NCBI GenBank assembly: GCA_025612375.1
Contig: JAAXKN010000001.1
Span: 352,669-416,668, forward strand
Length of the DNA stretch: 64,000 nt
Source of the DNA: Ignavibacteria bacterium
GTDB lineage: Bacteria; Bacteroidota; Ignavibacteria; Ignavibacteriales; SURF-24
Direction of reading: 5' to 3'
Both the position numbers and the translations under genes were made by a program. Position 1 is the stretch's first letter; the number at the start of each line of letters is the position of its first letter. Positions 31,514 to 48,048 of this stretch are shown here, piece after piece. Below the pieces are notes generated by a model, which was not told where the DNA came from, ran no database searches, and saw only the letters and a list, made by a program, of their open reading frames with translations.

Positions 31514-31552
31514 AAAGTGTCCCCAAATTGCTTTTCACTTCTCAATTAATGT

Positions 31553-32689: not shown

Positions 32690-32779
32690 TTATATTATCT
32701 TTCTATTTTGTACTTATATTACACCCTGAGAAGGAAAAAGTACTATGCAGGAAAGCTTTTTCGGGATGAAATAATCCGG

Positions 32780-33334
32780 CTAATCCAGGTGGGCGCTAAG
32801 CCTTTTTTTCAGTATGGAAATGGCCTTATTCATCTGGTTCTTTACGGTCTGAAGTGAAATCTGAAGGCTTTCGGCTATTTCTGAATATCCAAGGTCCTCA
32901 TAGCGGCTTAAGATAAAAATAGCACGGCAGCGCTCGGGCAGTGTATTGATTGCCTTCTGGAAATCATCCATGAGGAATGCCTGGTCGTATTCCTTTTCCG
33001 GGTCGCGGCAGATTGTCACTAAAAGTTCTTCCTGGTTATAAATGGGCTGCAGGGGCGGTTTGCGTGTTGCATGGTTAATTCCAAGATTGCGGGCAATCCT
33101 GAAAAGCAGTGCAGTAGGTGAAAACGAAGTATCCAGCTTTTCCCTTACCTGCCAGAATTTGATGAAGGTATCCTGCGTCAGGTCCTCGGCTGCCTGTCTT
33201 TCACTGGTATAGTGATAAAGGAAACGGAATACGGAATGCTGGTAAAGGCAAAAGAATTCTTCAAATGCCTCTTCGTCGCCGCATTTAATCTGGTAGAGTA
33301 ATTTTACCCGCTCTTCCTCTAACTGCTGTTCCAT
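32780..33334 (-). CDS. ECF-subfamily RNA polymerase sigma factor
   Basis: This 184-residue sigma-70 family protein has only regions 2 and 4. Region 2 is at about 22-90 (AAEDLTQDTFIKFWQ) and region 4 at about 125-180 (INTLPERCRAIFILSRYEDLGYSEIAESL, then a helix-turn-helix with VKNQMNKAI). It groups with Bacteroidota-type ECF factors controlled by FecR. It is expected to drive the FecR-TonB receptor genes and perhaps the genes down to 16721. No consensus for its target promoter could be derived from one locus. Confidence 0.94.
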   Translation of the reverse strand: MEQQLEEERVKLLYQIKCGDEEAFEEFFCLYQHSVFRFLYHYTSERQAAEDLTQDTFIKFWQVREKLDTSFSPTALLFRIARNLGINHATRKPPLQPIYNQEELLVTICRDPEKEYDQAFLMDDFQKAINTLPERCRAIFILSRYEDLGYSEIAESLQISLQTVKNQMNKAISILKKRLSAHLD

Positions 33335-33587: not shown

Positions 33588-33615
33588 TAAAAATAAAGCC
33601 GGACATATGTCCGGC
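33588..33615 (-). terminator. Terminator of the hydrogenase operon
   Basis: GCCGGACATATGTCCGGC (33598-33615) is a perfect palindrome. On the minus strand it is followed by TTTATTTTTATTTG. It lies 39 bp after the hydA stop codon and is the expected end of the long hyd transcript. Confidence 0.8.
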
Positions 33616-33653
33616 CTTCATTTGCAATTGAGGCTCTAGCAGTTTACTTCACG

Positions 33654-35531
33654 TCACGCGATTGATTTACCGCGTTTTACGTAGTGAGTATGAAGCAGGT
33701 GATGTGAAAGCTCGCTGCAGGGACCTTCTGTCAGGAAGTTCTCATAAATATATTTCACGTAAGGGTTCTCATGCGACTTTCTGAGCGTGAGCCCTTCATC
33801 CTCGGCGTAGATTGCCTCTGCACGTTTTTTCCTGATCTCTTCTGAAGTCGGTATTGGCTGCCCTCCTCCGCCAAGACATCCGCCGGGGCATGCCATGATC
33901 TCTACAAAATGAACGTCGCTAAGTTCACCCTTCTTCAGCATTTCCATGACTTTCTTTGCATTTGCAGTGCCGTGGGCAACAACAAACTTCAGTTCCACGC
34001 CTTCCAGGAAGCTGTATTCAGCCTTTAGATCTTCAAGTTTAACCGAAGCCTGCTTTATACCTTCAAAGCCGCGGCATGGGGTTATATTCAGGTTCTTAAA
34101 GGGAACTTCCCTTCCGGTTACGAGTTCATAGACAGTTCTTAAGGCAGCTTCCATAACGCCGCCCGTTGCTCCAAAGATGAGTCCTGCTCCCGAGGCATCT
34201 CCAAAAGGTTCATCGAAATGGCTCTTCGGCATTTCAGGCAGGTAAATGCCTGCTTCCTTGATCATCTGTGCAAGTTCACGCGTCGTAAGGCCGTAGTCGA
34301 CGTCCTTGAAGCCTGAGGCTCTCATTTCCGGGCGGTTGCATTCAAACTTCTTTGCCGAGCAGGGCATCAGTGCAACCGAAACTATGTCCTTGGGGTCTAT
34401 GCCCGTTTCCTGTGCGTAGAAAGTTTTTATGACGGCTCCGAACATCTGCTGGGGTGACTTTGCGGTTGAAAGGTAATCCAGGTATTCTGGATAGAAGTGT
34501 TCTATAAACTTTACCCAGCCCGGTGAGCATGAAGTAAACTGAGGCAGCCTGACCGACTCATCGCCAAGAACGATTGCTTTTTTAAGGCGGTTTAAGAGCT
34601 CCGTGCCCTCTTCCATTATTGTGAGGTCGGCTGTAAAGTTTGTATCGAAAACTCTGTCGAAACCTATTCTGCGCAGAGCCGAATTAAGCTCCCCGGTCAG
34701 TGAATGCCCGGGTTCCAGGCCGAATTCCTCTCCTATTCCTGCCCTTGGCGAAGGAGCCGTCTGAATTACCACGTGCTTTTTCGGGTCATCAATTGCCGCC
34801 CAAAGCTCATCCGAAGGGTCATTTGCACGCAGGGCTGCCGTAGGACAGCGGTTGATGCACTGCCCGCAGTTTATGCAGATTACATCGGCAAGAGGCTTAT
34901 CGAAGAATGTGCCTATGTGTGTTTCGTGCCCCCTGTCAATTGCTTCAAGAACACCTACTTCCTGGAGGTCGATACAGGTTCTTACGCATCTTTTGCAGAG
35001 CACGCACTTATTCATGTCCCTTATTACCGAGGCTGAAGAACGGTCAACTTCATATCTGGGTTTGTCCAGATGTCCGAAGTTGTACTGATCCACACCGTAC
35101 TCCTTGGCAAGCTTTTGGAGCTCGCAGTTCTGGTTTCTGAAGCATGAATAGCATTCGCCGTAATGCTCGCTTAAGAGCAGGTCAATTATATTGCGCCTTG
35201 CCTTTCTTACCATTGGAGTGGAAGTGTGGATTTTAATCGGAGCAGTTATCGGGAACGTGCAGGAAGCCTGCAAAGTACGAATGCCCTCTACCTCAACAAC
35301 ACACACCCGGCAGACGCCGGCAACGCAAAGGTCATCGTGATGGCACAGTGTAGGAATGTGGATCTGGTTCTGCCTGCAGGCCTCAAGTATAGTTGTTCCA
35401 AGGGGAACGGAAACCTTCTTCTCATTTATCTCAATTGAGACCGTGCCGCCTATGGTATTGATATCCTTGGGTTTTTCAACAATATGAGGCTTCTGGCTGA
35501 CGGGTACCCTGCTTGTATCTTTACTTTCCAT
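33654..35531 (-). CDS. hydA: [FeFe]-hydrogenase catalytic subunit HydA, first copy (HydA1)
   Basis: A modular [FeFe]-hydrogenase of about 625 residues, trimeric group A3 type. In order it has an N-terminal [2Fe-2S] domain (CHHDDLCVAGVCRVC), a His/Cys-ligated [4Fe-4S] site (HYGECYSCFRNQNC), a two-cluster ferredoxin (CVLCKRCVRTC, CINCGQCINRCP), and the H-cluster domain. The three H-cluster motifs are TSCSPGW, MPCSAKKFE and EIMACPGGCLGGGGQP. The second Cys of the usual TSCCPxW is Ser, unlike in HydA2. The C-terminal small-subunit segment (YIYENFL...HHLLHTHY) is fused. The start is taken at ATG 35531 because GGAGG lies 5 nt upstream; it overlaps the hydB stop. With HydB1 and HydC1 it forms an NAD(H)-linked hydrogenase. 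Confidence 0.94.
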   Translation of the reverse strand: MESKDTSRVPVSQKPHIVEKPKDINTIGGTVSIEINEKKVSVPLGTTILEACRQNQIHIPTLCHHDDLCVAGVCRVCVVEVEGIRTLQASCTFPITAPIKIHTSTPMVRKARRNIIDLLLSEHYGECYSCFRNQNCELQKLAKEYGVDQYNFGHLDKPRYEVDRSSASVIRDMNKCVLCKRCVRTCIDLQEVGVLEAIDRGHETHIGTFFDKPLADVICINCGQCINRCPTAALRANDPSDELWAAIDDPKKHVVIQTAPSPRAGIGEEFGLEPGHSLTGELNSALRRIGFDRVFDTNFTADLTIMEEGTELLNRLKKAIVLGDESVRLPQFTSCSPGWVKFIEHFYPEYLDYLSTAKSPQQMFGAVIKTFYAQETGIDPKDIVSVALMPCSAKKFECNRPEMRASGFKDVDYGLTTRELAQMIKEAGIYLPEMPKSHFDEPFGDASGAGLIFGATGGVMEAALRTVYELVTGREVPFKNLNITPCRGFEGIKQASVKLEDLKAEYSFLEGVELKFVVAHGTANAKKVMEMLKKGELSDVHFVEIMACPGGCLGGGGQPIPTSEEIRKKRAEAIYAEDEGLTLRKSHENPYVKYIYENFLTEGPCSELSHHLLHTHYVKRGKSIA

Positions 35532-36744
35532 TACGACCTCCGTAACCATTTTTATTGAATATTTCCTCTTTAAAGTTTTCAAGAATGGATAAGAATGCGT
35601 TCGGGCTCGACTGTCCCAGACCGCACTTAGAGGCTACCTGCATGGTTTTGCCGAGTTCTTTAAGTTTATTCAGCTGGCTGAAGGTGTAAGTTCCCTTTTC
35701 CAGCTTTTCGATACCCTCAAGCAGCTTCACGTTTCCAATCCTGCACGGAGTACACTGCCCGCAGGATTCTTCGACAAAGAATTCCATGAAGTTCCTTAGT
35801 ACCTTCAGCATGTTGCGGCTCTCGTTAAAGATCATTATTGAACCGCCGGTTGCCGCGTCCTCATAGGCCAGGCTCCTGTCGAACTGGCTTTTGGGCACGC
35901 ATATGCCCGAGGCGCCGCCGACCTGTACGGCTTTTGTATTCTTTGCGCCAACAATTTCCAGGAGGTCTTTTATTTTTGTCCCCCACAGGAGTTCATAGAC
36001 TCCTGGGCGTTCGCAGTCGCCCGAGACAGAAAAAAGCTTTGACCCGGTGGATTTATCGGTCCCGAACTTTTTAAACCACTCTCCCCCTTTTACCACAATG
36101 TGCGGCACACTGGCCAGTGTCTCAACATTGTTTACCACAGTAGGCCTTCCCATGTAACCGGTATTAACCGGGTAGGGCGGTCTGTTTCTGGCTTCGCCGC
36201 GGTTTCCTTCGAGGGATTCAATTAAGGCTGTTTCCTCGCCGCAGACGTAAGCGCCTGAGCCAAGGCGGATTGTGATGTCAAAGCTGAAATCCGGGTTTCC
36301 AAGTATATTATCACCAAGGAGGTTATCCAGCCTCATCTGTTCAAGATAGTCCTCGAGCGCTTTAAGCATATATTCATACTCGCCCCTGAGGTAAATTATT
36401 CCCTGCTTTGCTCCAAGCGTAAAGCCTGCAACAACAATGCCGTCAAAGACAAGTTCGGGGTATTCAAGAAGTAGCACCCTGTCTTTGAAGGTCCCCGGTT
36501 CACCCTCATCGGCATTACAGACGATAAATTTTTCTTCCGATTTTGATGCTGCCACGAGCATCCATTTTGTAGCTGTCGGGAACCCGGCGCCTCCGCGTCC
36601 TTTTAGTTTGGATTCCCTGAGTTCAAGGAGTACGTTCTCCCGGCCAATCTCCAGAGCTTTTCTGATGCCGTAACCGCGCGTATAGCTGGAAAACAAAACA
36701 GCCCCTTCGCGCTCTGCGGCGGGTTTATTTCCGTTCAGTTTCAT
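35521..36744 (-). CDS. hydB: NuoF-like flavoprotein subunit HydB, short form (HydB1)
   Basis: This 407-residue FMN/NAD(H)-binding subunit is homologous to NuoF. It has KGRGGAGFPTATKW (FMN loop), NADEGEPGTFKDR (NADH site), GAYVCGEETALIESLEG and the cluster motif ESCGQCTPCRIG with a later CGLGQ. It lacks both the N-terminal [2Fe-2S] thioredoxin-like domain and the C-terminal 2x[4Fe-4S] ferredoxin seen in HydB2. In bifurcating HydABC enzymes those extra centres contribute electron branches, so this complex may have a simpler, possibly NADH-only chemistry. It is coupled to hydA by overlapping codons and follows hydC by 8 nt. Confidence 0.93.
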   Translation of the reverse strand: MKLNGNKPAAEREGAVLFSSYTRGYGIRKALEIGRENVLLELRESKLKGRGGAGFPTATKWMLVAASKSEEKFIVCNADEGEPGTFKDRVLLLEYPELVFDGIVVAGFTLGAKQGIIYLRGEYEYMLKALEDYLEQMRLDNLLGDNILGNPDFSFDITIRLGSGAYVCGEETALIESLEGNRGEARNRPPYPVNTGYMGRPTVVNNVETLASVPHIVVKGGEWFKKFGTDKSTGSKLFSVSGDCERPGVYELLWGTKIKDLLEIVGAKNTKAVQVGGASGICVPKSQFDRSLAYEDAATGGSIMIFNESRNMLKVLRNFMEFFVEESCGQCTPCRIGNVKLLEGIEKLEKGTYTFSQLNKLKELGKTMQVASKCGLGQSSPNAFLSILENFKEEIFNKNGYGGRNGK

Positions 36745-36752
36745 ATTGGCTC

Positions 36753-37226
36753 CTATTTGATTTCATTTAGAATATTAATGGCTTTTTCGGGTGTCAGGTG
36801 AGTATAAACCTTGTCGTTTACGATCATTGCGGGGCCCTGATCACACATTCCAAGACAGTTAGCATATTCTAAAGTTATCCTCTTATCCCTTGTAGTTTGG
36901 CCGAAAGTAATTCCCAGTTCCCTTTCAACAGCCCTGGCAACCGCCTCTTTGCCCGACATGTCGCAGGCAATTGTCTGACACAGACGTACAATGTTTCTGC
37001 CCTGAGGTTCTGAATGAAGAAATGAATAGAAAGAAACTACGCTGTATACTTCAACAGGATGAATATCCAAAAGCCGGGCAATTTCCTGCTGAACAAAGTC
37101 ACTTATATACTTGTGTTTTCTTTGCACTGCCTGGAGTATCGGGAGGAGGGCTGAACGTTCGGTCCCGTATTGATCCACAAGGCTTTCAACTTCTTCTGTC
37201 AACGAGTTTTTTTCCAGTACCAGCAT
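36753..37226 (-). CDS. hydC: NuoE-like [2Fe-2S] subunit HydC, first copy (HydC1)
   Basis: The protein has 157 residues. A helical N-terminal part (LPILQAVQRKHKYISDFVQQ) is followed by the thioredoxin-like [2Fe-2S] fold with four Cys in VRLCQTIACDMSG and ANCLGMCDQGPAM, the NuoE/HydC pattern. It would carry electrons between the HydB flavin and the hydrogenase clusters. It lies 4 nt after the response-regulator gene, so signalling and catalytic genes share one message. Confidence 0.93.
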   Translation of the reverse strand: MLVLEKNSLTEEVESLVDQYGTERSALLPILQAVQRKHKYISDFVQQEIARLLDIHPVEVYSVVSFYSFLHSEPQGRNIVRLCQTIACDMSGKEAVARAVERELGITFGQTTRDKRITLEYANCLGMCDQGPAMIVNDKVYTHLTPEKAINILNEIK

Positions 37227-37230
37227 TTTT

Positions 37231-37611
37231 TTACTCCTTAACCTGGTTGACCAAAAGTTTTTCTACTTTTTTAATTAGTTCATCCGGAGTGATCGGCTTT
37301 TCTACAAAGTCATCCACAGGAACCATTTCACCTACGCCATAATCCATTCCTATAGTCTTGGAAACCGATGAATACATGATTATGGGAGTGTGGATGTTTT
37401 CCCTTCTGAACTTCTGTGCAAGGAAGAACCCGTCATCAGGCTCATCCATCATTACGTCCAGGATGATAAGGTCCGGGTTGTGCTTCAGTACAATTCCATA
37501 GCCGTCGTTGGGATTTGTAGCTGTAATTACCTCATATCCTTTCGATTCCAGAACCAGCGTACTGGCATCAAGAATATCCGGATCATCATCAATGATTGCG
37601 ATCAGTGCCAT
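37231..37611 (-). CDS. Stand-alone response regulator receiver (hydrogenase locus, first)
   Basis: This single receiver domain of about 126 residues has the acidic pair in IIDDDPD, the phospho-acceptor in IILDVMMDEPDDGF, the switch Ser in MYSSVS and Lys in VEKPI. There is no output domain. The start at 37611 is preferred to the in-frame ATG at 37617 because the GGAG ribosome site is 7 nt from the former and only 1 nt from the latter. The MDEPDDGF stretch after the acceptor resembles MEEHDSGF in the receiver at 39413, suggesting that the two are related and may serve the same kinases. Confidence 0.9.
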   Translation of the reverse strand: MALIAIIDDDPDILDASTLVLESKGYEVITATNPNDGYGIVLKHNPDLIILDVMMDEPDDGFFLAQKFRRENIHTPIIMYSSVSKTIGMDYGVGEMVPVDDFVEKPITPDELIKKVEKLLVNQVKE

Positions 37612-37795
37612 AGGCATTCTCCAATTAAAGTTATTAGAAGTTATTATTTAGGACGAGTGAGATTTATAATTACGGTCAATTATCCGGAAATAAAGAATCT
37701 TCTTCAGACAATCAGTTTTCAGACAATTATGCTTCGGGAAATAATATTACAGGAGTAAAGCTTCAGGAAAAAAATACCGGCTGAAACCTTTCGGG

Positions 37796-39298
37796 CTAAG
37801 ACGCAATTCCGCTCTGCTTGTTGATGCTGAGCGGCAAGTAGACCGAAAAGGTTGTGCCCTCACCGGATTTACTTTCAACCTCAATCTTCCCTGCATATGA
37901 GTCAACTATGCGTTTTACAATTGACAGCCCCAGCCCGGTGCCGCTGATACCACGGGTTTTATCGTTTTTCACCCTGTAGAATTCCTGGAAGAGTCTGGAC
38001 TTTTCTTCTTTTGTCATGCCTATACCGGTATCAGAAATCCTGGTAATAATATAATTGCCCGAGCTGCTGATGCTTATGTCAATTGAACCGTTGTCTTTAT
38101 TATATTTTACAGCATTGCTTAGTATGTTTGTAAAGAGCCTGTTAATTTCATTCTGGTCAGCCTTGAGTTTGGTTCCCGGAGAATCGATGTGAAAGTTGAC
38201 GGTAATTTTTTTCTTGTGGAGTTCAAGTTCGAGGAATTCGATAATGGATCTGACAGTCTGACTGATTTCAAGCTCTTTAATTTCGCGCTGTGTTTTCTTG
38301 AGTTCCATTCTGGAAATATCCAGCAGGTCGTTTACCATTACAACCAGGTTCTGCAGCCTTGTGTAGGATCTTTCAAGGAAGTCCTTCTGCTGCTCTGGTG
38401 AAACGTTAACTTCGTTGTCCAGAATTATCTTAAGAAAACCAATTACGGCTGCAATGGGCGTTTTCAGCTCATGCGCCACCATGGAAACGAACTGTGACTT
38501 TATGGCTTCAACCTTAACGGATTCCGTTATATTTCTTATTACTGTAACAACGCCTGCCAGCGATCCGTCCGCATGCGGAACAGGTGAGCAGGTGGCCTCA
38601 ATAACCAGCTCTTTGTTAGGTTTGAGCTCAATCTGTGTAGAATATGAATTCGGGATGTAGGTTTCGGAATCAATGAATTTTTTGATGATCTGTGTAATTT
38701 CATCAGGAAGGATTTCGAGGATTACATCCCCGATAAATATTTCATGAAGATCCAGGTACTTCAGGGCACTGGAATTATAGAGTACCAGTTCACCGGTCTT
38801 GTTTACTACCAGCGCTCCCTCGGTAATTGAATCAATTATGGTTTTTAATCTTGTCTTCTCATAGGCTATCTCCAGGAGCCTCTCCTCCCTCTCTTTTCTC
38901 AGCCTTTCGGCCTCCAGTATTAAGAGGCGCTTCTCATAGCCTTTCCTGAGCTGGAGAAGGAGTTCGTCCGGAGTAAACGGTTTGGGAATGTAGCTGTAAG
39001 CACCCAGCTTTGTGGACTCAATTGCAGTGTCATAACTTGCATATGCAGTTGCAATAAAGCATACAGTATTCGGATTTGCCTTACGGATCTCCTTGAGCAC
39101 CTGGATGCCGTCAATATCAGGCATCCTGAGGTCAATGATAGCCAGATCAAACTCGTTCATCTTGGCCAGGCGGATCCCTTCGGTTCCGTTTTCCGCAGCC
39201 TCGGCATAAAAGCCTTCGCTTTCCAAAAGACGCTTTGTGCCGAGCCTGAGTCCCCTTTCATCATCCACAATCAGGACATGTGGTTTATGGTTTTCCAC
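37796..39298 (-). CDS. Receiver-PAS-histidine kinase
   Basis: The protein has 500 residues and no membrane helix. An N-terminal receiver (about 7-120; VDDERGL, AIIDLRMPDIDG, IPKPFTPDELL) precedes a coiled-coil stretch and a PAS domain (about 150-260). The HisKA helix follows with FVSMVAHELKTPIAAVIG, then a complete ATPase domain (NILSNAVKYN, ISDTGIGMT, GTGLGLSIVKRIV). The receiver may be phosphorylated by another kinase in the locus, perhaps the sensory hydrogenase kinase, making this a relay node. It lies inside the hydrogenase operon between two single receivers. Confidence 0.92.
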   Translation of the reverse strand: MENHKPHVLIVDDERGLRLGTKRLLESEGFYAEAAENGTEGIRLAKMNEFDLAIIDLRMPDIDGIQVLKEIRKANPNTVCFIATAYASYDTAIESTKLGAYSYIPKPFTPDELLLQLRKGYEKRLLILEAERLRKEREERLLEIAYEKTRLKTIIDSITEGALVVNKTGELVLYNSSALKYLDLHEIFIGDVILEILPDEITQIIKKFIDSETYIPNSYSTQIELKPNKELVIEATCSPVPHADGSLAGVVTVIRNITESVKVEAIKSQFVSMVAHELKTPIAAVIGFLKIILDNEVNVSPEQQKDFLERSYTRLQNLVVMVNDLLDISRMELKKTQREIKELEISQTVRSIIEFLELELHKKKITVNFHIDSPGTKLKADQNEINRLFTNILSNAVKYNKDNGSIDISISSSGNYIITRISDTGIGMTKEEKSRLFQEFYRVKNDKTRGISGTGLGLSIVKRIVDSYAGKIEVESKSGEGTTFSVYLPLSINKQSGIAS

Positions 39299-39412
39299 TT
39301 GTTTTCCCTTTTTTTATTTTAGGAACATATTTCAGAACAGATGATGAATTTAAAGCCAGATACTTATCCCGGATAAATTTACGAATAATAATTGATATAC
39401 ATTATATAAAAA

Positions 39413-39826
39413 TCAGGCCACAGTTTCAAAGAAATGCTCCAGTTTTTTAAGGAGCTCTTCAAAAACTATAGGCTTGTTGAGCACTGCATCGCACTTTATC
39501 CATTCCTTCTCCTCGCTTGTAGAGGAGCCGAATTTATAGCCCGTAAGGTACGTTGCGCTTGTAAGAAGAAATACGGGAATATTTTTTCCGTAGGGATCTC
39601 TTTTTATCCTATGGCAAAGAATGAAACCCGAATCGTGCTCTTCCATGATAAGGTCTAAAATTGCGGCATCAGGCTTTTCTTTCTTAAACTCGTTCCAGCC
39701 ATCTTCCACGTTTTCAGCTGTAATAATTTCATAGCCTTTGGATTTCAGCAAGATCGTATGCTGTTCAAGAAGATCAATATCGTCATCAACCAGAAGAATT
39801 TTTTTTACTTTTTCGTGAACTGACAT
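39413..39826 (-). CDS. Stand-alone response regulator receiver (hydrogenase locus, second)
   Basis: This single receiver domain of 137 residues has ILLVDDDIDL, the phospho-acceptor in AAILDLIMEEHDSGF, the switch Thr in LLTSAT and Lys in LNKPIV. It has no output domain. It lies 12 nt after the sensory hydrogenase-kinase gene, which makes that kinase its most likely phosphodonor. Its similarity to the receiver at 37231 (the MxExDxGF stretch) points to duplication or shared partners. Confidence 0.92.
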   Translation of the reverse strand: MSVHEKVKKILLVDDDIDLLEQHTILLKSKGYEIITAENVEDGWNEFKKEKPDAAILDLIMEEHDSGFILCHRIKRDPYGKNIPVFLLTSATYLTGYKFGSSTSEEKEWIKCDAVLNKPIVFEELLKKLEHFFETVA

Positions 39827-39838
39827 TTATTCAACTCC

Positions 39839-41830
39839 TTAGTTCATAATAGTTTGATTGTTAAGATGAGAAGGAAGCTTCAGCGTGAATGTAGTCCCCT
39901 CACCCAGTTTACTTTGAACCCCAATGTCTCCTCTGTGCATTTTTATGATGCCATAGGTTATTGCCAGGCCGAGGCCTGTGCCCTTTCCCATTTTCTTTGT
40001 AGTAAAGAAAGGGGTAAACAGCTTACTTAAATTTTCTTTTGGTATGCCGCAGCCCGTATCCTTAAATTCCACGACGAGATATTCCTCCTGCCTCAATACC
40101 CTTACAGATACATTCTTATCTTTCTTGTCCTCAAAAGATTCAAATGCGTTGTTCAGGACGTTAAGGAACACTTCCTTAATCTGGTCGGCATCGGCTTCAA
40201 TAACCGGTTCTTCAGCCGTATTTTCCAGGACTATCTTTACGTCCTTATAGACCGGATTAATGGAAAAAGCCTTCATGATCTTGGATAAAAGCTCCCAGAT
40301 ATTGATTTTCGAAAGTTTCAGCTTCCCCTGACGCGCAAAGTTCAGAAGATTAGCTACAATATACTTGCAGCGGTTGGTCTCATCGATTATCATGTTGAGA
40401 TCTTCCGTGTACTGATTGCAGCCCGAGACCTTCGACCATTCATTCCTGAGCATGGATGAATAGAGTAAAATTGTGCCCAGAGGGTTATTTATCTCGTGCG
40501 CCACACCCGCGGCAAGCTGCCCGATTGAGGCCAGCTTTTCTGCCGAGTGGAGCTGCTCCTGCGTATTTTTCAGCTCATCATAGGCTTTTTCAAGCTTGTC
40601 AATTAAATACGGCAGGCACATTTCATCCTCAGCCAGACCCTTTGCAATTGCAACGGCATACTCACGGCATGAAACATAGCCGCAAGCCGTGCAGTTGAGC
40701 TCATCCTGCTTTTCAAATTTATTAGAACGGGCCAGTATTTCCTTTATCTTCTCTTCAGAAGGCATCGGCTTTCTCTGGTTTTTCGAAGAGAAATTCCTCC
40801 TGAAACTGATATTCCGGCTGTTGAAAATGTTGCTTTTCCACAAATGCTTGTCAACGTTGTTGATCTTTTCTTCGCAATACTTAATGACCTTTTCCCTTTT
40901 TGAGTAGTAATTAAGGTCACTGTCAATAGCCGGGCCGCTGATGCACCCCTCGCAGAAAAGTATGTCAACAAATTTCGAATTAATGTTTCCCTGCGCTATC
41001 TCGTTGAGTATTTCAAGCACTTTGTCCTTGCCTTCAACAACAATGGTCTCTTTGGCAAGAATGTCGTTCGAAATAGAAGCCGTCTTCAGGAGTCCGCCCG
41101 CAAGAGGGAAAACCTTTCCCATATGTGAGTGCGGCGGGTCAAAATCGTCATCCGGAAGGCCGGAAAGCTCAATTTTCTTGTTCCTGAAGATTTCCTTCAG
41201 CTCTGTAAAGGTAAGAACGGCATCAATTGCGCCTGACACCTCGTCGTCTATATACTCGCTTTTTTTTGCAACACAGGGCCCTATAAAGACAACCTTAATG
41301 TCTTTTCCCAGGTTGGCCTTCAGGTATCTTCCCATTGCTATCATGGGAGAGACGATTGTAGCCAGGTTCGGCACCAGCTCTTCACGATATTTTTCAATAT
41401 AGTTATAAACAGCCGGGCACGACGAACTGATTATCGTCTTGCCATTAAAGGATTCCATTTCCCGGGAATAAAGCTGCCCTATCAGATCAGCCCCGAATGC
41501 GGTCTCTGCAACCGTCTTAAAACCCAGAAGACGAAGTGCAGCAGGCAGCTTTGTATAGCTTTCGGGAAAAGAGGCGGCAAACGACGGAGCAATTATGGCG
41601 ACGGCCTTACCTGTGGTAAGTATATCCTCAAGTATAACCTCAATGTCGCTTTTTATCTGCTTTGCCTGCTGTGAGCAGACTTTCAGACAATGCCCGCAGC
41701 TGATGCACCTGTCCCCGATGACCACAGCCTGACCATTGACAACCCGGATAGCAATAGCAGGGCATTCTCTGATACAAGAGTAACATCTTTTGCATTTCTG
41801 CCCTATTGTGCTTACAATACTTTTGCCCAT
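39839..41830 (-). CDS. Sensory [FeFe]-hydrogenase-like domain fused to histidine kinase
   Basis: The protein has 663 residues and no membrane helix. An N-terminal 2x[4Fe-4S] ferredoxin (CKRCYSCIRECP, CISCGHCLKVC; about 12-55) is followed by an [FeFe]-hydrogenase large-subunit domain (about 70-335). A four-Cys Fe-S module follows near 380-405 (CTACGYVSC...MC), then HisKA (VAHEINNPLGTILLYSSMLR) and a complete ATPase domain (NVLNNAFESF, DTGCGIP, GKGTGLGLAI). The H-cluster motifs are altered: SSSCPAVYN without the Trp, IGPCVAKKSE, and LFCEGCISGP with CxxC instead of CxxxC. All four potential ligand Cys remain. This is the layout of a putative H2 or redox sensor of the histidine-kinase-linked hydrogenase group. 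It is embedded between hydA2 and a receiver gene. Confidence 0.93.
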   Translation of the reverse strand: MGKSIVSTIGQKCKRCYSCIRECPAIAIRVVNGQAVVIGDRCISCGHCLKVCSQQAKQIKSDIEVILEDILTTGKAVAIIAPSFAASFPESYTKLPAALRLLGFKTVAETAFGADLIGQLYSREMESFNGKTIISSSCPAVYNYIEKYREELVPNLATIVSPMIAMGRYLKANLGKDIKVVFIGPCVAKKSEYIDDEVSGAIDAVLTFTELKEIFRNKKIELSGLPDDDFDPPHSHMGKVFPLAGGLLKTASISNDILAKETIVVEGKDKVLEILNEIAQGNINSKFVDILFCEGCISGPAIDSDLNYYSKREKVIKYCEEKINNVDKHLWKSNIFNSRNISFRRNFSSKNQRKPMPSEEKIKEILARSNKFEKQDELNCTACGYVSCREYAVAIAKGLAEDEMCLPYLIDKLEKAYDELKNTQEQLHSAEKLASIGQLAAGVAHEINNPLGTILLYSSMLRNEWSKVSGCNQYTEDLNMIIDETNRCKYIVANLLNFARQGKLKLSKINIWELLSKIMKAFSINPVYKDVKIVLENTAEEPVIEADADQIKEVFLNVLNNAFESFEDKKDKNVSVRVLRQEEYLVVEFKDTGCGIPKENLSKLFTPFFTTKKMGKGTGLGLAITYGIIKMHRGDIGVQSKLGEGTTFTLKLPSHLNNQTIMN

Positions 41831-41898
41831 TGCTCTCGGATTCTACCTGGTTATGCAAACAATATAAAGCTGAACTTAAAAACTACCTGCTGTACCTT

Positions 41899-43635
41899 TT
41901 AACCGACACTGTTCTTTAGGAGTTCTTTTCTGTCGGTATACGTAGTATGCAGAATTTCATGCGATTTATGGCTGTTCGGCTCCTTGAAAAACTCCTTATA
42001 GATGGTTTTTACCGCCTCGTTATCATGGCTCCTGCGGCAGGCCATCTCTGCATCTATTTCATAGAGAGCTTTAATTCTCTTTTGTACCTTTTCAGGCTTG
42101 TTGTGTATCGGCTGTCCCCCGCCGTTTATGCAGCCGCCGGGGCAGGCCATAACTTCAATGAAATCGTATTTTGACGTGCCATTCTGAATTTCGTCCAGAA
42201 CAGGACCGACGTTTCCGATTCCATTGACAACAGCAATATGTAATTCCATACTATCGATCTTTACGGAAGTTTCTTTAATGCCCTTGAGTCCGCGTATGTC
42301 TTCAAACTCAAGCTTTTCAAGCTCGTTTCCGGTAAGTATGTGGTATGCTGTTCTAAGGGCCGCTTCCATTACGCCGCCTGAGGTTCCGAAGATTACGGCA
42401 GCGCCGGTTGACTCCCCTAGCGGGTTGTCGAATTTGTCTTCGGGAAGATCGCTGAAATCGATTCCGGCCATTTTGAAATACCTGACTAGTTCGCGTGTTG
42501 TCAGAACTGCATCTACGTCCTGCATCAGGACTTCAGAGAGTTCCGGGCGGTCAGATTCAAATTTCTTAACCGTGCAGGGCATGATGGAAACAACAAATAT
42601 ATCCTTCGGGTCAAGCCCCATCTTCTTTGCATAATAGGTCTTTGTTATGGCGCCAAGCATTTCATGAGGCGACTTGCAGGTTGAAATGTGTTCAAGCATT
42701 TCAGGCCTGTTCTGCTCAATGTATTTAATCCAGCCCGGGCAGCAGCTTGTAAACATCGGGAGCTTCTTATTATTCTTGATCCTGTTGACCAGCTCCGTCC
42801 CCTCTTCCATAATTGTAAGGTCTGCGGCAAAGTTTGTGTCAAAGACCTTGTCGAAGCCGAGGCGTTTTAAGCCCGTAACCAGCTGTCCGGTAACGTTTGT
42901 GCCCATAGGGAGGTTGTATTCCTCACCCAGTGAAGCACGCACTGCAGGAGCAACCTGAGCGATGGTAAATTTTTTCTTGTCGTTCAGAGCGTATGCCACT
43001 TCTTTAAGAGCGCTTCTTTCCCTCAATGCTGCCGTAGGGCAGACGAGTATGCATTGCCCGCAGAGTATGCATTCGCTGACATTGATCCCTTTGTTGTACG
43101 GGGTCGTAACTATGCTTGAAAATCCCCTGTTTGTAAAGTCAATTGCACCTACTTTCTGAATCTCATTGCACACACGGACGCACCTGCCGCAGAGTATGCA
43201 CTTGGCAGGATCCCTTTCAATTGAAGGGCTTGAAACGTCGATAGCATGTTTTTTGGTTTCTCCTGCGTAGCGGTGTTCTCTTACGCCGTACTGTTCGGAG
43301 AGGTCCTGCAGCTCGCAGTTCTTGTTGCGGACGCAGACGAGGCAATCCTGCGGATGATTTTCAACGAGCAGTTCCACAATGGTTTTTCTTGCGCGCCTTA
43401 CCCTCGGGGAATTTGTTTCAACCACCATTCCCTCATAGACCGGATAAGCACAGCTTGGGATGAGTCCCCTCTGCCCTTCGACTTCCACAACGCACATACG
43501 GCAGGCTCCTGTGGGAGTCAGATTCTTCAGATGGCATAAAGTAGGCACATGTATTCCCACAGATTTTGCAGCATCAAGAATTGTCATTCCTTCTTCTGCA
43601 TTAACTTTAATACTATTTATGGTTAACTGAACCAT
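41899..43635 (-). CDS. hydA: [FeFe]-hydrogenase catalytic subunit HydA, second copy (HydA2)
   Basis: This hydrogenase has 578 residues and the same module order as HydA1: [2Fe-2S] (CHLKNLTPTGACRMC), His/Cys cluster (HPQDCLVCVRNKNC), two-cluster ferredoxin (CILCGRCVRVC, CILCGQCILVCP), and the H-cluster domain. The H-cluster motifs are the classical ones: TSCCPGW, MPCTVKKFE and EVMACPGGCINGGGQP. A fused small-subunit tail ends in HEILHTTYTDR. A GGAG ribosome site supports the start. It is followed by the sensory hydrogenase-kinase gene and preceded by the long hydB, with which it probably forms an electron-bifurcating complex oxidising or making H2 with ferredoxin and NAD(H). Confidence 0.95.
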   Translation of the reverse strand: MVQLTINSIKVNAEEGMTILDAAKSVGIHVPTLCHLKNLTPTGACRMCVVEVEGQRGLIPSCAYPVYEGMVVETNSPRVRRARKTIVELLVENHPQDCLVCVRNKNCELQDLSEQYGVREHRYAGETKKHAIDVSSPSIERDPAKCILCGRCVRVCNEIQKVGAIDFTNRGFSSIVTTPYNKGINVSECILCGQCILVCPTAALRERSALKEVAYALNDKKKFTIAQVAPAVRASLGEEYNLPMGTNVTGQLVTGLKRLGFDKVFDTNFAADLTIMEEGTELVNRIKNNKKLPMFTSCCPGWIKYIEQNRPEMLEHISTCKSPHEMLGAITKTYYAKKMGLDPKDIFVVSIMPCTVKKFESDRPELSEVLMQDVDAVLTTRELVRYFKMAGIDFSDLPEDKFDNPLGESTGAAVIFGTSGGVMEAALRTAYHILTGNELEKLEFEDIRGLKGIKETSVKIDSMELHIAVVNGIGNVGPVLDEIQNGTSKYDFIEVMACPGGCINGGGQPIHNKPEKVQKRIKALYEIDAEMACRRSHDNEAVKTIYKEFFKEPNSHKSHEILHTTYTDRKELLKNSVG

Positions 43636-43671
43636 TAGAATCTCCTACTATTTCGATTTAATCGGAAAAAA

Positions 43672-45657
43672 TTAGTTTATCTCAATAGCCTTAAAACGGC
43701 AGCTTTCGAAACACATGCCGCACTGAATGCATTTATCCTGAATAATGTAGTGTGCCTGCCCCTTCTCTCCGGCAATGGCTTCATTTGGACATTTCTTCAG
43801 GCAAAGCCCGCAGCCCGAGCAGATGCTGTTGTCTATGGTAAATGTCAAAAGCTCCTTGCAGACTCCTGCAGGGCATTTCCTGTCGTAGAGATGAGCTTCG
43901 TATTCTTCCTTAAAGTACCTTAAGCCTGAAAGGACCGGGTTTGGAGCCGTCTGCCCGAGGCCGCAAAGAGAGGTATCTTTTATCACGTCGGCCAGGCGCT
44001 GCAGGTGAACAACCCCCTTGAACCTTTGCAGCTGGTCCAGTTTGTCCTTTGTATTCTTGTAGCTCCTTGGAATTCTTTCAATTATTTCGAGCATGCGCTT
44101 TGTTCCTTCGCGGCACGGCACGCATTTTCCGCAGGATTCGTTCTGTATAAATGAGAGGAAGAATCTTGCTATGTCAACCATACAGGTATCTTCATCCATT
44201 ACTACAAATCCGCCTGAACCCATCATGGCACCTACGGTTTTGAGAGATTCATAGTCAACCTGTGTCTTAATGACGCTGTCAGGAAGGCATCCGCCCGAAG
44301 GGCCTCCTATCTGAACAGCCTTAAAGAGCTTGTTGTTTGGAATTCCGCCCCCGATCTTGAAGACCACGTCTTCAAGCGTAACTCCCATAGGCACTTCAAC
44401 GAGGCCCGAGTTCTTGATTTTGCCGGAAAGCGCAAATACTTTTGTTCCCTTGCTCGATTGCGTACCGATTGAGGAGAACCAGCCTGAGCCTCTGGCTATT
44501 ACGGCAGGCACGTTGGCAAAGGTTTCAACGTTATTTATGATGGTCGGCTTACCCCAGAGCCCTGAATTAGCCGGGTAAGGGGGTCTGGGCTTCGGCATTC
44601 CGCGCTTGCCTTCAATTGAGGCAATAAGTGCCGTTTCCTCGCCGCAGACAAAAGCTCCGGCACCTTTTTTAACTTTCAGGTCAAAGCTGAAATTGCTGCC
44701 AAGTATGTTCTTACCAAGCAGTCCGTATTTCCTGCACTCTTTAATTGAGTTTTCCAGCCTTTCAATTGCAAGCGGATATTCTGCACGGCAGTATATATAG
44801 CCGTTGGTGGCTTCAATTGCATAGGCAGCAATGAGCATTCCTTCAATTATCCTGTAGGGATCGCTTTCCAGGACTGAGCGGTCCATGAATGCACCCGGAT
44901 CGCCTTCATCAGCGTTGCAGATGATGTACTTTACGTCGCTCTTATTCTTAAGGGCGAGTTCCCACTTCTTTCCTGTAGGAAATCCGCCGCCGCCGCGTCC
45001 CCTTAGTCCACTGGCCAGGACTTCCTTTACAACGCCTTCTGGTTTCATGAGGCGCAGGACTTTGTCAAATCCTTTGAAGCCTCCTACACTTAAGTAGGCG
45101 TCAATTGATACAGGATCGATAATTCCGCAGTTTTCAAGTACAACTTTAAGCTGATGCTTGAAAAACGGGTCTTCGTTGATGTTTGGGACTTCAGGAGTGG
45201 ATTTTCCGTGGGTTCCTAAGAGTTTTTCCTTGAAAACTCCTTTTTCCACTATTGTCCTTTGTATGAGCTTTGGGACAATTTTAGGGACAATTTCGCAGTA
45301 CGAAATTCTGTCCTGTCCGGGGAGTTTAATGTCTACAATTACTTCTTTCGCACAGTAGCCTATACAGCCTGTAGCTACGATGCGGGCATTGATATTAAGT
45401 CTTTTTAATTCATTTACGATAGCCTCTTCAACTTTTTTCGCCCCTGATGCCAGTCCGCAGGTACCCATTCCAATAAAAATTACAGGAAGGTCGTGCTCCT
45501 TAAAGGTCAATTGTTTGTTCAGGCTGATGAACTTTTCCTGACATTCGGAATTATGGTGGCAAAGGGGGCCTTCGGTGCAGCATGTAACAAATTGGCTGCA
45601 CGGTTTTTCTAAGCTGTGCCAGCATTCATCACAGCATTTATCCAGAAAGGTTTTCAT
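43672..45657 (-). CDS. hydB: NuoF-like flavoprotein subunit HydB, long form (HydB2) with Cys-rich N-terminus
   Basis: The protein has 661 residues. A Cys-rich leader (eight Cys at positions 8, 9, 12, 20, 26, 27, 33 and 39) is followed by a thioredoxin-like [2Fe-2S] domain (about 50-135, MGTCGLASGAKK, ATGCIGYC). Next come the NuoF core (RGRGGGGFPTGKKW, NADEGDPGAFMDR, GAFVCGEETALIASIEG) and the cluster motif ESCGKCVPCREG. A C-terminal 2x[4Fe-4S] ferredoxin ends the chain (CSGCGLCLKKCP, CIQCGMCFESC; about 605-655). This is the full bifurcating-type HydB. The Cys-rich leader is not part of the usual domain set. Its start overlaps the hydC stop by 4 nt. Confidence 0.94.
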   Translation of the reverse strand: MKTFLDKCCDECWHSLEKPCSQFVTCCTEGPLCHHNSECQEKFISLNKQLTFKEHDLPVIFIGMGTCGLASGAKKVEEAIVNELKRLNINARIVATGCIGYCAKEVIVDIKLPGQDRISYCEIVPKIVPKLIQRTIVEKGVFKEKLLGTHGKSTPEVPNINEDPFFKHQLKVVLENCGIIDPVSIDAYLSVGGFKGFDKVLRLMKPEGVVKEVLASGLRGRGGGGFPTGKKWELALKNKSDVKYIICNADEGDPGAFMDRSVLESDPYRIIEGMLIAAYAIEATNGYIYCRAEYPLAIERLENSIKECRKYGLLGKNILGSNFSFDLKVKKGAGAFVCGEETALIASIEGKRGMPKPRPPYPANSGLWGKPTIINNVETFANVPAVIARGSGWFSSIGTQSSKGTKVFALSGKIKNSGLVEVPMGVTLEDVVFKIGGGIPNNKLFKAVQIGGPSGGCLPDSVIKTQVDYESLKTVGAMMGSGGFVVMDEDTCMVDIARFFLSFIQNESCGKCVPCREGTKRMLEIIERIPRSYKNTKDKLDQLQRFKGVVHLQRLADVIKDTSLCGLGQTAPNPVLSGLRYFKEEYEAHLYDRKCPAGVCKELLTFTIDNSICSGCGLCLKKCPNEAIAGEKGQAHYIIQDKCIQCGMCFESCRFKAIEIN

Positions 45658-46148
45658 TGTTCGCTCGTAATTTGTTCTTCAATTTTTTCTGATGAGACTT
45701 CTGAAGCAGTATATTTTTTCAGGATTCTCGGGATGTCCTTTACGGTTGCTCTGCCGTAATAGTCATCATTTACAACAATAACAGGAGCAATACTGCATGC
45801 TCCGATACAAGCTACAACTTCCAAAGTAAAATTCTTATCTCTTGTGGTCTCCCCTGCCTTGCAGTTCAAGGCTGTTTCCAAAGCAAATAACAGGTTTGCT
45901 GAACCTTTCACGTGGCATGCTGTTCCCCTGCATACTCTTATGATGTTTTTCCCAAGGGGTTTTAATCTGAACTGGTTGTAAAAGGTAGCAACTCCATAGA
46001 TCCTGCTCAGGGGCATATCAAGAAATTCGCTAATATCCATCAGAGCTGATTCGGGTAGGTAACCATATATATTCTGCACCTCTTGCAGCAAGGATATTAA
46101 ATTGCTTTTATCTTTGGGAGGATAATTGGAGAAAATGTTTGAATGCAT
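45654..46148 (-). CDS. hydC: NuoE-like [2Fe-2S] subunit HydC, second copy (HydC2)
   Basis: This 164-residue NuoE/HydC protein has a helical start (LISLLQEVQNIYGYLPESAL), then the thioredoxin-like [2Fe-2S] fold with VCRGTACHVKGS and VACIGACSIAPV holding the four ligand Cys. It is the first gene of the 12.5-kb leftward hyd operon and lies about 30 bp behind a sigma-54-type promoter. Confidence 0.94.
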   Translation of the reverse strand: MHSNIFSNYPPKDKSNLISLLQEVQNIYGYLPESALMDISEFLDMPLSRIYGVATFYNQFRLKPLGKNIIRVCRGTACHVKGSANLLFALETALNCKAGETTRDKNFTLEVVACIGACSIAPVIVVNDDYYGRATVKDIPRILKKYTASEVSSEKIEEQITSEQ

Positions 46149-46301: not shown

Positions 46302-46385
46302 GAAAAGGAAAAAGTACAATAAAATTGGACCTCTGGTGCAATTTGGGCGGATAATCTTGATTTTATGTGGAAAAAGAAATGAGAA

Positions 46386-46417
46386 GCCCTGAATGCCGCC
46401 AATGGGGCATTCAGGGC
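46386..46417 (-). terminator. Terminator of purE
   Basis: GCCCTGAATGCC (46386-46397) pairs perfectly with GGCATTCAGGGC (46406-46417), a 12-bp stem with an 8-nt loop, 38 bp after the purE stop. On the minus strand it is followed by TTCTCATTTC; on the plus strand by CCTTTATTTT. It separates purE from the hyd promoter. Confidence 0.75.
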
Positions 46418-46454
46418 CCTTTATTTTAGAATTGCTCAGGACCGGAGAAGGTTA

Positions 46455-46946
46455 CTAGCCGATCGCATTGTTTTTTGCCGCAGATTCTTCTGCAAGTTTC
46501 TTCTTGTAATTCTTTACTTTCTCAAGCAGGCCCTTGTCCTCCACTGCCAGGATCTGTATGGCAAGAAGAGCCGCGTTTTTCGCTCCCCCGATAGCTACCG
46601 TAGCTACAGGAATGCCTGAAGGCATCTGAACGATGGACAGCAGTGAGTCCAACCCGTTTAAGGATTTACTTAAAATAGGAACTCCTATTACCGGCAGCGG
46701 AGTGTATGCCGCGGTTACACCCGGAAGATGTGCTGCCCCTCCGGCGCCTGCAATAATTACCTTAATACCCCTGTTTATGGCCTCTGTAGCATATTCTGCC
46801 AGCATGTGAGGTGTACGGTGTGCCGATATGATCTTAAGCTCGAACATGACGCCGAACTGATCGCAGACACTGGCGGCTTCTTTCATTACGGGCAGATCGG
46901 AATCGCTTCCCATTATTATAGCTATTTGCGGACTGAAATTTTCCAT
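46455..46946 (-). CDS. purE: N5-carboxyaminoimidazole ribonucleotide mutase
   Basis: This class I PurE has about 163 residues and converts N5-CAIR to CAIR in purine synthesis. Motifs are [43 protein letters not shown] and [21 protein letters not shown] (the substrate-binding loops). The start is taken at ATG 46946, which has AGGA upstream; an in-frame ATG at 46982 has none. purK is not adjacent. It appears to be a single-gene transcript with its own terminator. Confidence 0.94.
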
Positions 46947-47046
46947 GTTTTTTCCTGAAATTGTTGCTTTCAAAAGATACATTCAATTTAAGAAAGATTC
47001 AATTTTCTCCTATTGCACTTTAGCCAGCAAAAGAAAAAAACAGGAC

Positions 47047-47079
47047 AAAAAAAAAGGAATACCCGGCAGGGGGTATTCC
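47047..47079 (-). terminator. Rho-independent terminator of the GIN-domain gene
   Basis: GGAATACCC (47056-47064) pairs with GGGTATTCC (47071-47079). On the minus strand the stem is followed by nine T residues (47047-47055). It begins 22 bp after the stop codon. Confidence 0.88.
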
Positions 47080-47101
47080 ATTTTATTAAAAATTATGCGC
47101 C

Positions 47102-47770
47102 TTATTTTTCAGTAATTGAACCGATGCCTGAAACGCTTCTTCTCACATTCTTGGGGTTTCCGTAGTAATCCAGGCTTCCCACACCCGATATGTCGGCTCT
47201 TAATTCCTTAGAGGCGTAAACCTCGGCCTTTGAAGCGCCGCTGATTTCCACATTGGCGTTATCTGCAAGAAGGTCACGGGCTTCCACTTTCACGGCACCC
47301 GAGAGGCTTAGCCTCAGCATGCCGGTTTTGCCCGAAAGATACATTTTCCCGGCACCGCTTGCATCGAGCTTAATCCTGTCGTTATTTACGTTTTCAACCG
47401 TTATGTTGCTTGCCCCGGAAGTTTCCACTTCATCAATATTAGAAGCCGTAATATTTACCTTTATCTTTTTCTTCGGGTTTATGCTCTTTGTATTATAAAT
47501 ATGCAAAGTATTTCCGCTGATTTCCGATTTTATTAGCGGCAGAATATTACTTTCAGCACTTATCGTCACACCCGGAGTAGAGCCGCAGGTGATATTTACC
47601 TCATATGCTCCACCAATATCAACCGCGTTAAAATCGCTCAAAGAGCGTGTTTCTTCCCTGCTTATGCCGCTTCCTCTTACACCGCCAAAGCCGTGGCAGT
47701 TGAATCCGAAACCGTGGCAGCCGGCAAAAACGAGAAATAATAATGCTGAAGCCAGTAAAACTCTTTTCAT
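47102..47770 (-). CDS. GIN-domain (DUF2807) lipoprotein
   Basis: This 222-residue lipoprotein has signal peptide lipobox VFAGC. It is followed by two right-handed beta-type modules rich in small polar residues (DFNAVDIGGAYEVNI, SGASNITVENV, LDASGAGKMYLSG, ISGASKAEVYA), as in the DUF2807 family (head GIN domain). Members are common in Bacteroidota and are thought to lie on the cell surface; their role is not established. It has its own terminator and appears monocistronic. Confidence 0.88.
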   Translation of the reverse strand: MKRVLLASALLFLVFAGCHGFGFNCHGFGGVRGSGISREETRSLSDFNAVDIGGAYEVNITCGSTPGVTISAESNILPLIKSEISGNTLHIYNTKSINPKKKIKVNITASNIDEVETSGASNITVENVNNDRIKLDASGAGKMYLSGKTGMLRLSLSGAVKVEARDLLADNANVEISGASKAEVYASKELRADISGVGSLDYYGNPKNVRRSVSGIGSITEK

Positions 47771-48048
47771 ATGTCCTCCATGCTTAAAATCTTGACCCTT
47801 CTGGAAATTTAGACGCAGGAAGTTTCAGGAAGTTCTAAATTAAACATTTTTTTTTCATTTAGCCATGAATGGAGCCTGAGGAACAGTTCAATAACTTTTG
47901 GACTTCTTTCGATAGTAAAGTCCCGGTAAACCCGGTTTTTTTAAAGAAAAATATTATATATTTGCTGAACCATTTCAAGCAGCAGGCTTAAAGCCCGGCT
48001 CAGATCGCAAAAGGTCCAAAACGAAGTAATTCTTGAATTTAAGATAAT

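Follow-up and report, generated by a model that had tools for sequence, protein, structure and literature searches.

The hydrogenase locus described here lies on the minus strand (46148 to 33654) of a 64,000-nucleotide stretch of DNA, hereafter the window, from an Ignavibacteria bacterium (assembly GCA_025612375.1, contig JAAXKN010000001.1, positions 352,669 to 416,668). Its ten open reading frames (ORFs) are, in order of transcription, hydC-I, hydB-I, hydA-I, hydS, rec1, a REC-PAS kinase gene, rec2, hydC-II, hydB-II and hydA-II, and they form two joined modules. Module I comprises a HydCBA trimer, the hydrogenase-like kinase HydS, the stand-alone receiver Rec1 and the REC-PAS kinase, and module II comprises the receiver Rec2, a second HydCBA trimer and a membrane kinase that in this genome is located elsewhere. 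The two trimers are predicted to differ in kind, wherein HydABC-I would be a bifurcating enzyme that uses NADH and ferredoxin, whereas HydABC-II would use NADH only. We interpret the locus as a two-gear hydrogen control operon in which one sigma54-dependent transcript carries both modules and each trimer has a dedicated regulator in the stand-alone receiver of its module, and we assign this interpretation a probability of about 0.5. Set I denotes the first-transcribed trimer and set II the last-transcribed, which an initial annotation of the same stretch had numbered 2 and 1, respectively.

All ten ORFs have the ends, the strand and the families that the initial annotation gave them, as judged by Pfam and NCBIfam searches, and the order that it read from this one genome is upheld by relatives. 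There are 50 genomes with a HydS ortholog (in one case split into two frames) among the 245 genomes of the class that were searched, and all 50 HydS loci were examined. The ten genes are found in the same order in 20 of these 50 genomes, and a contig end truncates the start of one further locus. One of the 20 complete loci carries fused hydC-II and hydB-II genes, and another has the split hydS together with a hydA-II gene that is cut by a contig end. Thus, the gene order is unlikely to be due to chance.

The two modules are also found apart. There are nine class loci where module I lacks hydB-II and hydA-II, three of them from the family f3 and six from f8, where rec2 and hydC-II are located divergently beside it. 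Module I is likewise present as a unit at the Calditrichaeota and Neomarinimicrobiota loci L141 and L147, which belong to a set of 80 loci wherein 19 were annotated (L133-L148, L169, L189 and L202). Module II stands alone, with rec2, hydCBA-II and the membrane kinase gene, at five loci among the HydS genomes. Other rearrangements follow family lines: the pair rec2-hydC-II is separated from hydB-II-hydA-II at seven loci, all in f8; rec1 is located directly behind hydA-I, with HydS elsewhere, at eight loci, all in f4; and hydS through hydA-II remain together, with hydCBA-I elsewhere, at five loci, all in f3.

Orthologs of Rec2 are present in 71 of the 245 class genomes. Coordinates, read by hand, place rec2 shortly before hydA-II and on its strand in 51 of these 71 (31 loci in HydS genomes and 20 from genomes without a full-length HydS). 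The two genes are not contiguous in 14 genomes, which are 13 members of f8 plus G187, where they are on different contigs; among the 13, G005 is assembled in short contigs and the HydA-II of G209 is not among the matches listed. No HydA-II was found in the remaining six.

The 20 genomes without a full-length HydS all carry rec2-hydC-hydB-hydA-II, but their loci were picked from the 51 contiguous ones and so this is not an independent count. HydS, Rec1 and an intact REC-PAS kinase are all missing from these loci. The membrane kinase gene is located downstream in 16 of them (15 within about 330 nucleotides, and at 1.7 kb in L218), and three of the other four have another kinase before rec2. Remnants of module I are found before the retained module II at L213, L214, L215 and L218. 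In the genome G049, hydC-I and the final third of the REC-PAS kinase gene are preserved before rec2, whereas G130, G093 and G145 preserve only parts of hydC-I. We read these remnants as the probable trace of a block loss of the bifurcating half together with HydS and Rec1, wherein module II was retained. The remnants at L213 include part of the REC-PAS kinase gene, and hydA-II of L215 is in two overlapping frames.

These arrangements bear on the proposal of the initial annotation, wherein all four signalling genes form one phosphorelay that reads H2 through HydS and balances both hydrogenases. The four genes do stand together in the 20 complete loci. However, the nine loci where module I lacks hydB-II-hydA-II, the 20 chosen loci where Rec2 and HydABC-II persist without the other signalling genes, and the four loci with remnants of a deleted module I make a single relay improbable. 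The retention of module II without HydS indicates that Rec2 belongs with HydABC-II rather than with a common HydS relay. Other parts of the proposal are supported by the conserved residues of the kinases and receivers and by the Fe-S signature of HydS, which are described below.

The subunits of set I are HydC-I (45654..46148, 164 amino acids), a thioredoxin-like [2Fe-2S] subunit that matches PF01257 at 6e-52, HydB-I (43672..45657, 661 amino acids) and HydA-I (41899..43635), a group A [FeFe]-hydrogenase catalytic subunit with the motifs TSCCPGW, IMPCTVKKFE and EVMACPGGCINGGG. HydB-I is composed of a CCxxC prefix, a thioredoxin-like Fe-S region that was placed by alignment to solved HydB chains, NuoF/FMN and NADH_4Fe-4S regions, and two C-terminal [4Fe-4S] motifs. 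Set II consists of HydC-II (36753..37226, PF01257 at 2e-49), HydB-II (35521..36744, 407 amino acids) and the group A catalytic subunit HydA-II (33654..35582), whose true start may be an ATG located 11 or 17 codons further in. HydB-II has neither the thioredoxin-like N-terminus nor the C-terminal [4Fe-4S] motifs, and is reduced to the FMN/NADH part and its single Fe-S site. Within the window, the two sets are 47% identical in HydA, 42% in HydB and 35% in HydC. Both HydA proteins score above the NCBIfam cut-off of group A6, labelled 'NADH-dependent'.

The residue criteria that distinguish bifurcating from NADH-only beta subunits, as described in the accessible text of PMC7311640, split HydB-I and HydB-II cleanly. 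HydB-I exhibits the extra Fe-S domains and the A/M, F and GGPSG residues of electron-bifurcating HydABC (Bfu, group A3). HydB-II has the characteristics of NADH-dependent non-bifurcating HydABC, wherein the extra Fe-S domains are lacking, T/S and K/S/A take the place of A/M, a Tyr is present and GGPSG is not. The bifurcating marks, including the two C-terminal [4Fe-4S] motifs, are complete in 45 of 47 HydB-I sequences from relatives, a count that leaves out a paralog from a third hydrogenase set (L081), itself also complete. The two incomplete sequences are those of L073, where GGPSG is absent by pattern, and L123, which is a fragment at a contig end. The HydB-II marks (T/K, Y and GGASG) are found in 40 of 40 sequences, plus 19 of 20 further sequences from genomes without a full-length HydS. 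The initial annotation recognised two HydABC sets but missed this difference in kind.

The motif TSCSPGW in HydA-II was considered as a possible sign that the subunit is inactive. This was rejected because the identical motif occurs in the solved HydA1 chain 7q4v_A, which is presumably the active Acetobacterium woodii enzyme.

The third set, L081 (G000:C2:86000-103000), resides in the same genome as the window and its HydB carries the bifurcating marks. It is accompanied by a 575-amino acid sensory-type [FeFe] protein, a SpoIIE-type phosphatase, a Rex repressor and two more genes with Rex-like domains. From its gene content, L081 appears to represent a DNA-binding style of control in the genome that carries the operon.

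HydS (39839..41830) contains two [4Fe-4S] sites, an H-domain, an Fe-S domain with the motif Cx2Cx4Cx16C and a HisKA-HATPase kinase region, and it has no membrane segments. The motif cysteines (C380, C383, C388 and C405) do not vary among the 48-49 orthologs in which these positions are covered. The L1 motif reads SSSCPAV. The Cx2Cx4Cx16C motif, the loss of the proton-relay Cys and the Gly in L2 are assigned to putative sensory [FeFe]-hydrogenases in the available text of PMC8163306. HydS thus has the combination of Cx2Cx4Cx16C and a lost proton-relay Cys that marks the putative sensory groups C and D. As described in that source, TmHydS (group C) and TamHydS (group D) share the two N-terminal [4Fe-4S] sites, the cysteine motif and the lost proton-relay Cys, and TmHydS has the same Gly at the prototype Met353 position. 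Unlike both proteins, HydS has its histidine kinase directly after the Fe-S domain, and no PAS domain was found by Pfam at an E value of 0.01. HydS is therefore not filed as group C (M2f) and is no textbook member of that group. Judging from its residues, HydS probably senses H2. The named records that it matches best include Stygiobacter, Melioribacteraceae, Melioribacter roseus and metagenome-assembled genomes of Ignavibacteriales.

A different architecture is found at L083 (6300-8666; G000:C10), where an [FeFe]-hydrogenase domain and Cx2Cx4Cx16C are joined to a methyl-accepting chemotaxis protein (MCP) signalling domain. This domain arrangement makes the protein a candidate H2 chemoreceptor. 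Frames with its Fe-S motifs, matched on these motifs alone, are present in five more class genomes (L245-L249).

The stand-alone receivers are encoded by rec1 (39413..39826) in module I and rec2 (37231..37617) in module II, where it is co-located with hydCBA-II. Both match PF00072, with Asp58, Thr89 and Lys118 of Rec1 conserved in 47 of 47 sequences and Asp54 and Lys107 of Rec2 in 43 of 43. Between them is the gene for the REC-PAS-HisKA-HATPase kinase (37796..39298), which has a GTG start and encodes no hydrophobic segments. The residues that are characteristic of two-component systems, namely the phospho-accepting His and the ATPase motifs of the kinases and the Asp, Thr-Ser and Lys of the receivers, are conserved. 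Rec1 and Rec2 constitute two separate clades, each with invariant positions besides the phosphorylation site.

The gene that frequently follows hydA-II in relatives was considered as an NtrC-type regulator. This was rejected, since the gene encodes a histidine kinase with six hydrophobic segments, a weak PilS-like Pfam match and no DNA-binding domain. A match to this membrane kinase of at least 263 bits is found in 46 of the 50 HydS genomes, and that of the window's genome is on contig C30 (48404-49780), away from the operon.

Neither Rec1 nor Rec2 contains an output domain, and Pfam reveals no HPt or DNA-binding domain in any of the ten operon genes. Among the 25 largest clusters of flanking genes there is no conserved DNA-binding neighbour, save an NtrC-like gene (identified by eye) at four loci, and no hidden maturase or regulator. 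The membrane kinase is the only neighbour with broad conservation; the commonest flanking families in these clusters, named by eye and present in 15 genomes each, are an ispE-like gene and a group of repeat-type proteins. Given this lack of an output domain and of a conserved DNA-binding partner nearby, each phosphorylated receiver would most likely bind its own hydrogenase directly. Signals from HydS (H2), the REC-PAS kinase and the membrane kinase would then set the flow of H2 through each hydrogenase route. Rec1 would tune HydABC-I within module I, and Rec2 would act on HydABC-II. We infer the pairing of kinases with receivers, and the contact between receiver and hydrogenase, from these arrangements. 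Since there is one receiver per enzyme and the two are kept together through rearrangements, direct control of the enzymes appears to fit better than a common relay. A more specific possibility, which we hold tentatively and at somewhat less than even odds, is that each NADH-linked [FeFe]-hydrogenase is gated by its own CheY-like receiver, such that the cell could change between the bifurcating and the NADH-only enzyme without new transcription. A search of the open-licence literature yielded no report of a hydrogenase that is switched by dedicated stand-alone receivers.

Several observations weigh against dedicated receivers in a single operon. Rec2 has no adjoining HydABC-II at five f4 loci (with the membrane kinase at L055, L056, L059 and L087, and alone at L085), and no HydA-II was found in the genomes concerned; Rec2 can therefore have another target. 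At the f3 loci L047, L050, L052, L053 and L084, Rec1 remains with HydS while hydCBA-I is elsewhere, and at the f3 locus L076 hydS, rec1 and the REC-PAS kinase gene are apart from both trimers. Thus, Rec1 is not tied to its trimer alone. No fusion of a receiver to a hydrogenase was found; the 72 Rec2 matches across the class lie in open frames of 95-220 amino acids. A sigma54 promoter needs an activator, and so transcription must also be controlled. The failure to find HydF in this genome, discussed below, leaves maturation unproven. Finally, the operon is followed on the same strand, past a hairpin, by a trio of genes for an ECF-type sigma factor, FecR and a TonB-type receptor (28511-33334), which we take to be a separate unit.

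The five f4 loci would also suit a looser explanation, in which the genes are kept together merely by a convenient promoter for fermentation genes and the receivers serve unrelated processes. This is very improbable given that Rec2 is contiguous with hydCBA-II in most Rec2-bearing genomes of the class and that each receiver is a clade of its own with invariant positions beyond the phosphorylation site.

A sigma54-type -24/-12 element, TGGCAC-N5-TTGCA, is present on the minus strand at 46196-46181 and begins 48 nucleotides before the start of hydC-I. It is the sole exact match in the 64 kb, where 0.08 are expected. A relaxed search (one mismatch, Y at position six) gives three matches versus 4.82 expected, which leaves the exact match and its location as the only informative features. 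Among relatives, 13 of 50 loci that begin with hydC-I have a sigma54-like element versus 0.58 in shuffles, and 11 of the 13 elements are located 32-66 nucleotides before the annotated start. The 50 loci include four remnants of module I, and two of these have a match. Elements are also found at four of 17 loci that begin with hydS (0.44 in shuffles) and five of 33 that begin with rec2 (0.49 in shuffles). Internal sigma54 promoters were rejected because matches are near the shuffle level, the highest being those at the membrane kinase gene (6/47 versus 1.21) and hydC-II (3/57 versus 0.63). There is one sigma70-like match, at 11 of 12 positions, before the REC-PAS kinase gene (39429-39401).

The spacing is consistent with a single unit. 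From hydC-I to hydB-II, there is an overlap of 4 nucleotides followed by gaps of 36, 68, 12, 114, 178, 4 and 8 nucleotides, and hydB-II and hydA-II overlap by 11-62 nucleotides depending on the hydA-II start chosen. The gaps of about 115 and 180 base pairs in the initial annotation are confirmed, although its description of the rest as mostly 0-20 nucleotides overlooks those of 36 and 68. A terminator-like hairpin of 10 pairs with a T-rich tail follows hydA-II on the minus strand (33595..33618), and a strong hairpin with T-rich stretches after it on both strands (14 pairs on the minus and 12 on the plus strand) is located at the upstream boundary (46384..46419). Hairpin sites number 26 in the window versus 17.1 (standard deviation 4.4) in shuffles, and a hairpin by itself is thus weak evidence. 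The exact sigma54 element, the hairpins at both ends, the tight and conserved spacing and the scarcity of internal sigma54-like matches (the membrane kinase gene excepted) make it likely, as the initial annotation supposed, that both hydrogenases are encoded in one transcript.

The same promoter is compatible with purely transcriptional control, wherein the kinase and receiver relays end on an NtrC-type sigma54 activator elsewhere and the receivers, as relay or phosphate-sink components, never touch the hydrogenases. An activator must indeed be encoded elsewhere in the genome. By family, elements precede hydC-I at 1 of 2 loci in f1, 9 of 20 in f2 and 3 of 11 in f3; in the latter, where most modules are split, they also precede hydS at 4 of 6 loci and rec2 at 3 of 4 (two mismatches each), as this explanation would have it. 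Moreover, in the available portion of PMC5492636, hydrogenase proteins of both sets of M. roseus are listed at fermentative conditions only; upregulation of transcripts is stated there for another set, MROS_0634. However, no sigma54-like element was found at hydC-I-first loci of f8 (0/7) or of f4/f21 (0/10), where the receivers and kinases are nevertheless kept. The NtrC-like gene at four loci does not amount to a broadly conserved nearby activator, the operon has no HPt domain, and Rec2 accompanies the enzyme genes also where HydS is missing. We therefore regard purely transcriptional control as somewhat unlikely.

Rex operators were also considered, and were rejected at hydC-I (10 of 46 loci versus 7.15 in mononucleotide shuffles), hydB-II (7/40 versus 5.0) and the membrane kinase gene (10/42 versus 6.2). 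Rex-type matches are more frequent at hydS (12/56 versus 6.7) and rec2 (15/43 versus 6.15), and at some f4 loci one inverted repeat, in the gap between the divergent rec2 and hydS, counts for both genes. In L055, L085 and L087 this gap contains the inverted repeat TTGTGA...TCACAA or TCACTA, which is possibly a Rex or CRP/FNR-type operator in a family where no sigma54-like element was found at hydC-I.

The initial annotation treated an absence of the maturation genes hydEFG as grounds for doubt, and such doubt is partly justified. The window's genome encodes HydE and HydG side by side (L080), above the cut-offs. However, no HydF scores above the cut-off of 325.55 in this draft of 140 contigs, where the best match (85 bits) covers only the GTPase part. 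There are 20 HydS genomes with HydF (E 1e-60), 19 with HydG (E 1e-80) and 18 with both, whereas neither was found at these thresholds in 29 of the 50. A lax HydG search (E 1e-4) of the 31 genomes that lack HydG again found none; it turned up four HydE genes, although no search with a HydE model was made. The lax HydF search encompassed the window's own genome and 10 others, and thereby four of the 30 genomes that lack HydF (G000, G173, G113 and G032). G113 and G032 are single contigs that are rated 99 and 100% complete. In G119 and G180, where HydF is present and HydG was not found, the HydF gene is located a few hundred nucleotides upstream of hydC-I on the same strand (L045 and L051).

Giardia and Entamoeba are said to lack maturases too. 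The H-cluster ligand motifs nevertheless persist in the genomes with neither HydG nor HydF: all 27 HydA-I and all 19 HydA-II sequences have L1 (TSCCPGW or TSCSPGW) and L2, and L3 is present in 26 of 27 and 18 of 19, wherein the exceptions are an undetermined stretch and a contig-end cut. The motif [ST]GGVMEA is missing by pattern from 8 of these 27 HydA-I sequences, all in f4, and from 2 of 18 in genomes with both maturases; HydA-I of f4 may thus have drifted. All three maturases are essential according to the accessible part of a review (PMC6212873). The genomes with neither may have another maturation route, or may keep the proteins for a role that does not need the complete cofactor; alternatively, their maturases may have diverged so far that they were missed. 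Since many relatives seem to have neither HydG nor HydF, how, or whether, their H-clusters are made becomes a testable question.

The closest biochemical counterparts of HydABC-I are known from structures. The solved HydABC chains 7p5h and 7q4v, which we take to be those of Thermotoga maritima and Acetobacterium woodii, have the same domains and residues as HydABC-I, and we know of no second NADH-only trimer or dedicated receiver alongside either. A likely precedent, judged by a title only, is Ruminococcus albus, whose hydrogenases are reportedly of bifurcating, non-bifurcating and sensing kinds. HydB-II resembles the NADH-only Hyd1ABC of Syntrophomonas wolfei and HydAB of Syntrophus aciditrophicus in its T/K and Y residues, a sequence other than GGPSG and the lack of extra Fe-S domains (PMC7311640, accessible text). 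That text compares enzymes, whereas in the present locus an NADH-only and a bifurcating-type trimer belong to one operon and the former comes with a receiver of its own.

By its gene numbers, the same locus is present in Melioribacter roseus (MROS_2480-2482 and 2487-2488; PMC3534657, PMC5492636), where hydCBA-I is followed by four genes, a fused hydC-hydB-II and hydA-II. The class genome G153 (L048) has the same fusion and the full gene order. The available portions of these two reports describe two hydrogenases, which are called bifurcating, and do not discuss the sensor, the receivers or their partnership. Operons in which HydABC genes occur with those for sensory hydrogenases and kinases have been described (PMC11406978, PMC8163306, in the text available). 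In the BfuABC-T clusters of Hydrogenedentota (PMC11406978), sensory [FeFe] proteins with kinase or PAS domains are likewise found beside HydABC, and a non-bifurcating subtype II lacks the B3B4 and B5 domains. There, however, the subtypes are in separate clusters, and the words 'receiver' and 'response regulator' are absent from the main text. In the open-licence literature searched, there is no description of a bifurcating and NADH-only pair with one receiver each.

Upstream of the operon (46455-52056) are purE, which encodes AIR carboxylase, a DUF2807 gene and a triple-AAA gene. These are found near the operon in 10, 11 and 8 genomes, respectively, with the window counted, and so the position of the locus looks inherited.

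Bifurcating and NADH-only hydrogenases run at different H2 pressures. The arrangement of the operon, which relatives retain, points to a cell that alternates between two modes of hydrogen production or use, and the presence of both enzymes under one likely promoter, together with a likely H2 sensor, would offer a genetic way into the choice that fermenters make between the two. If each receiver does act on its trimer, this would constitute a new way of controlling a hydrogenase.

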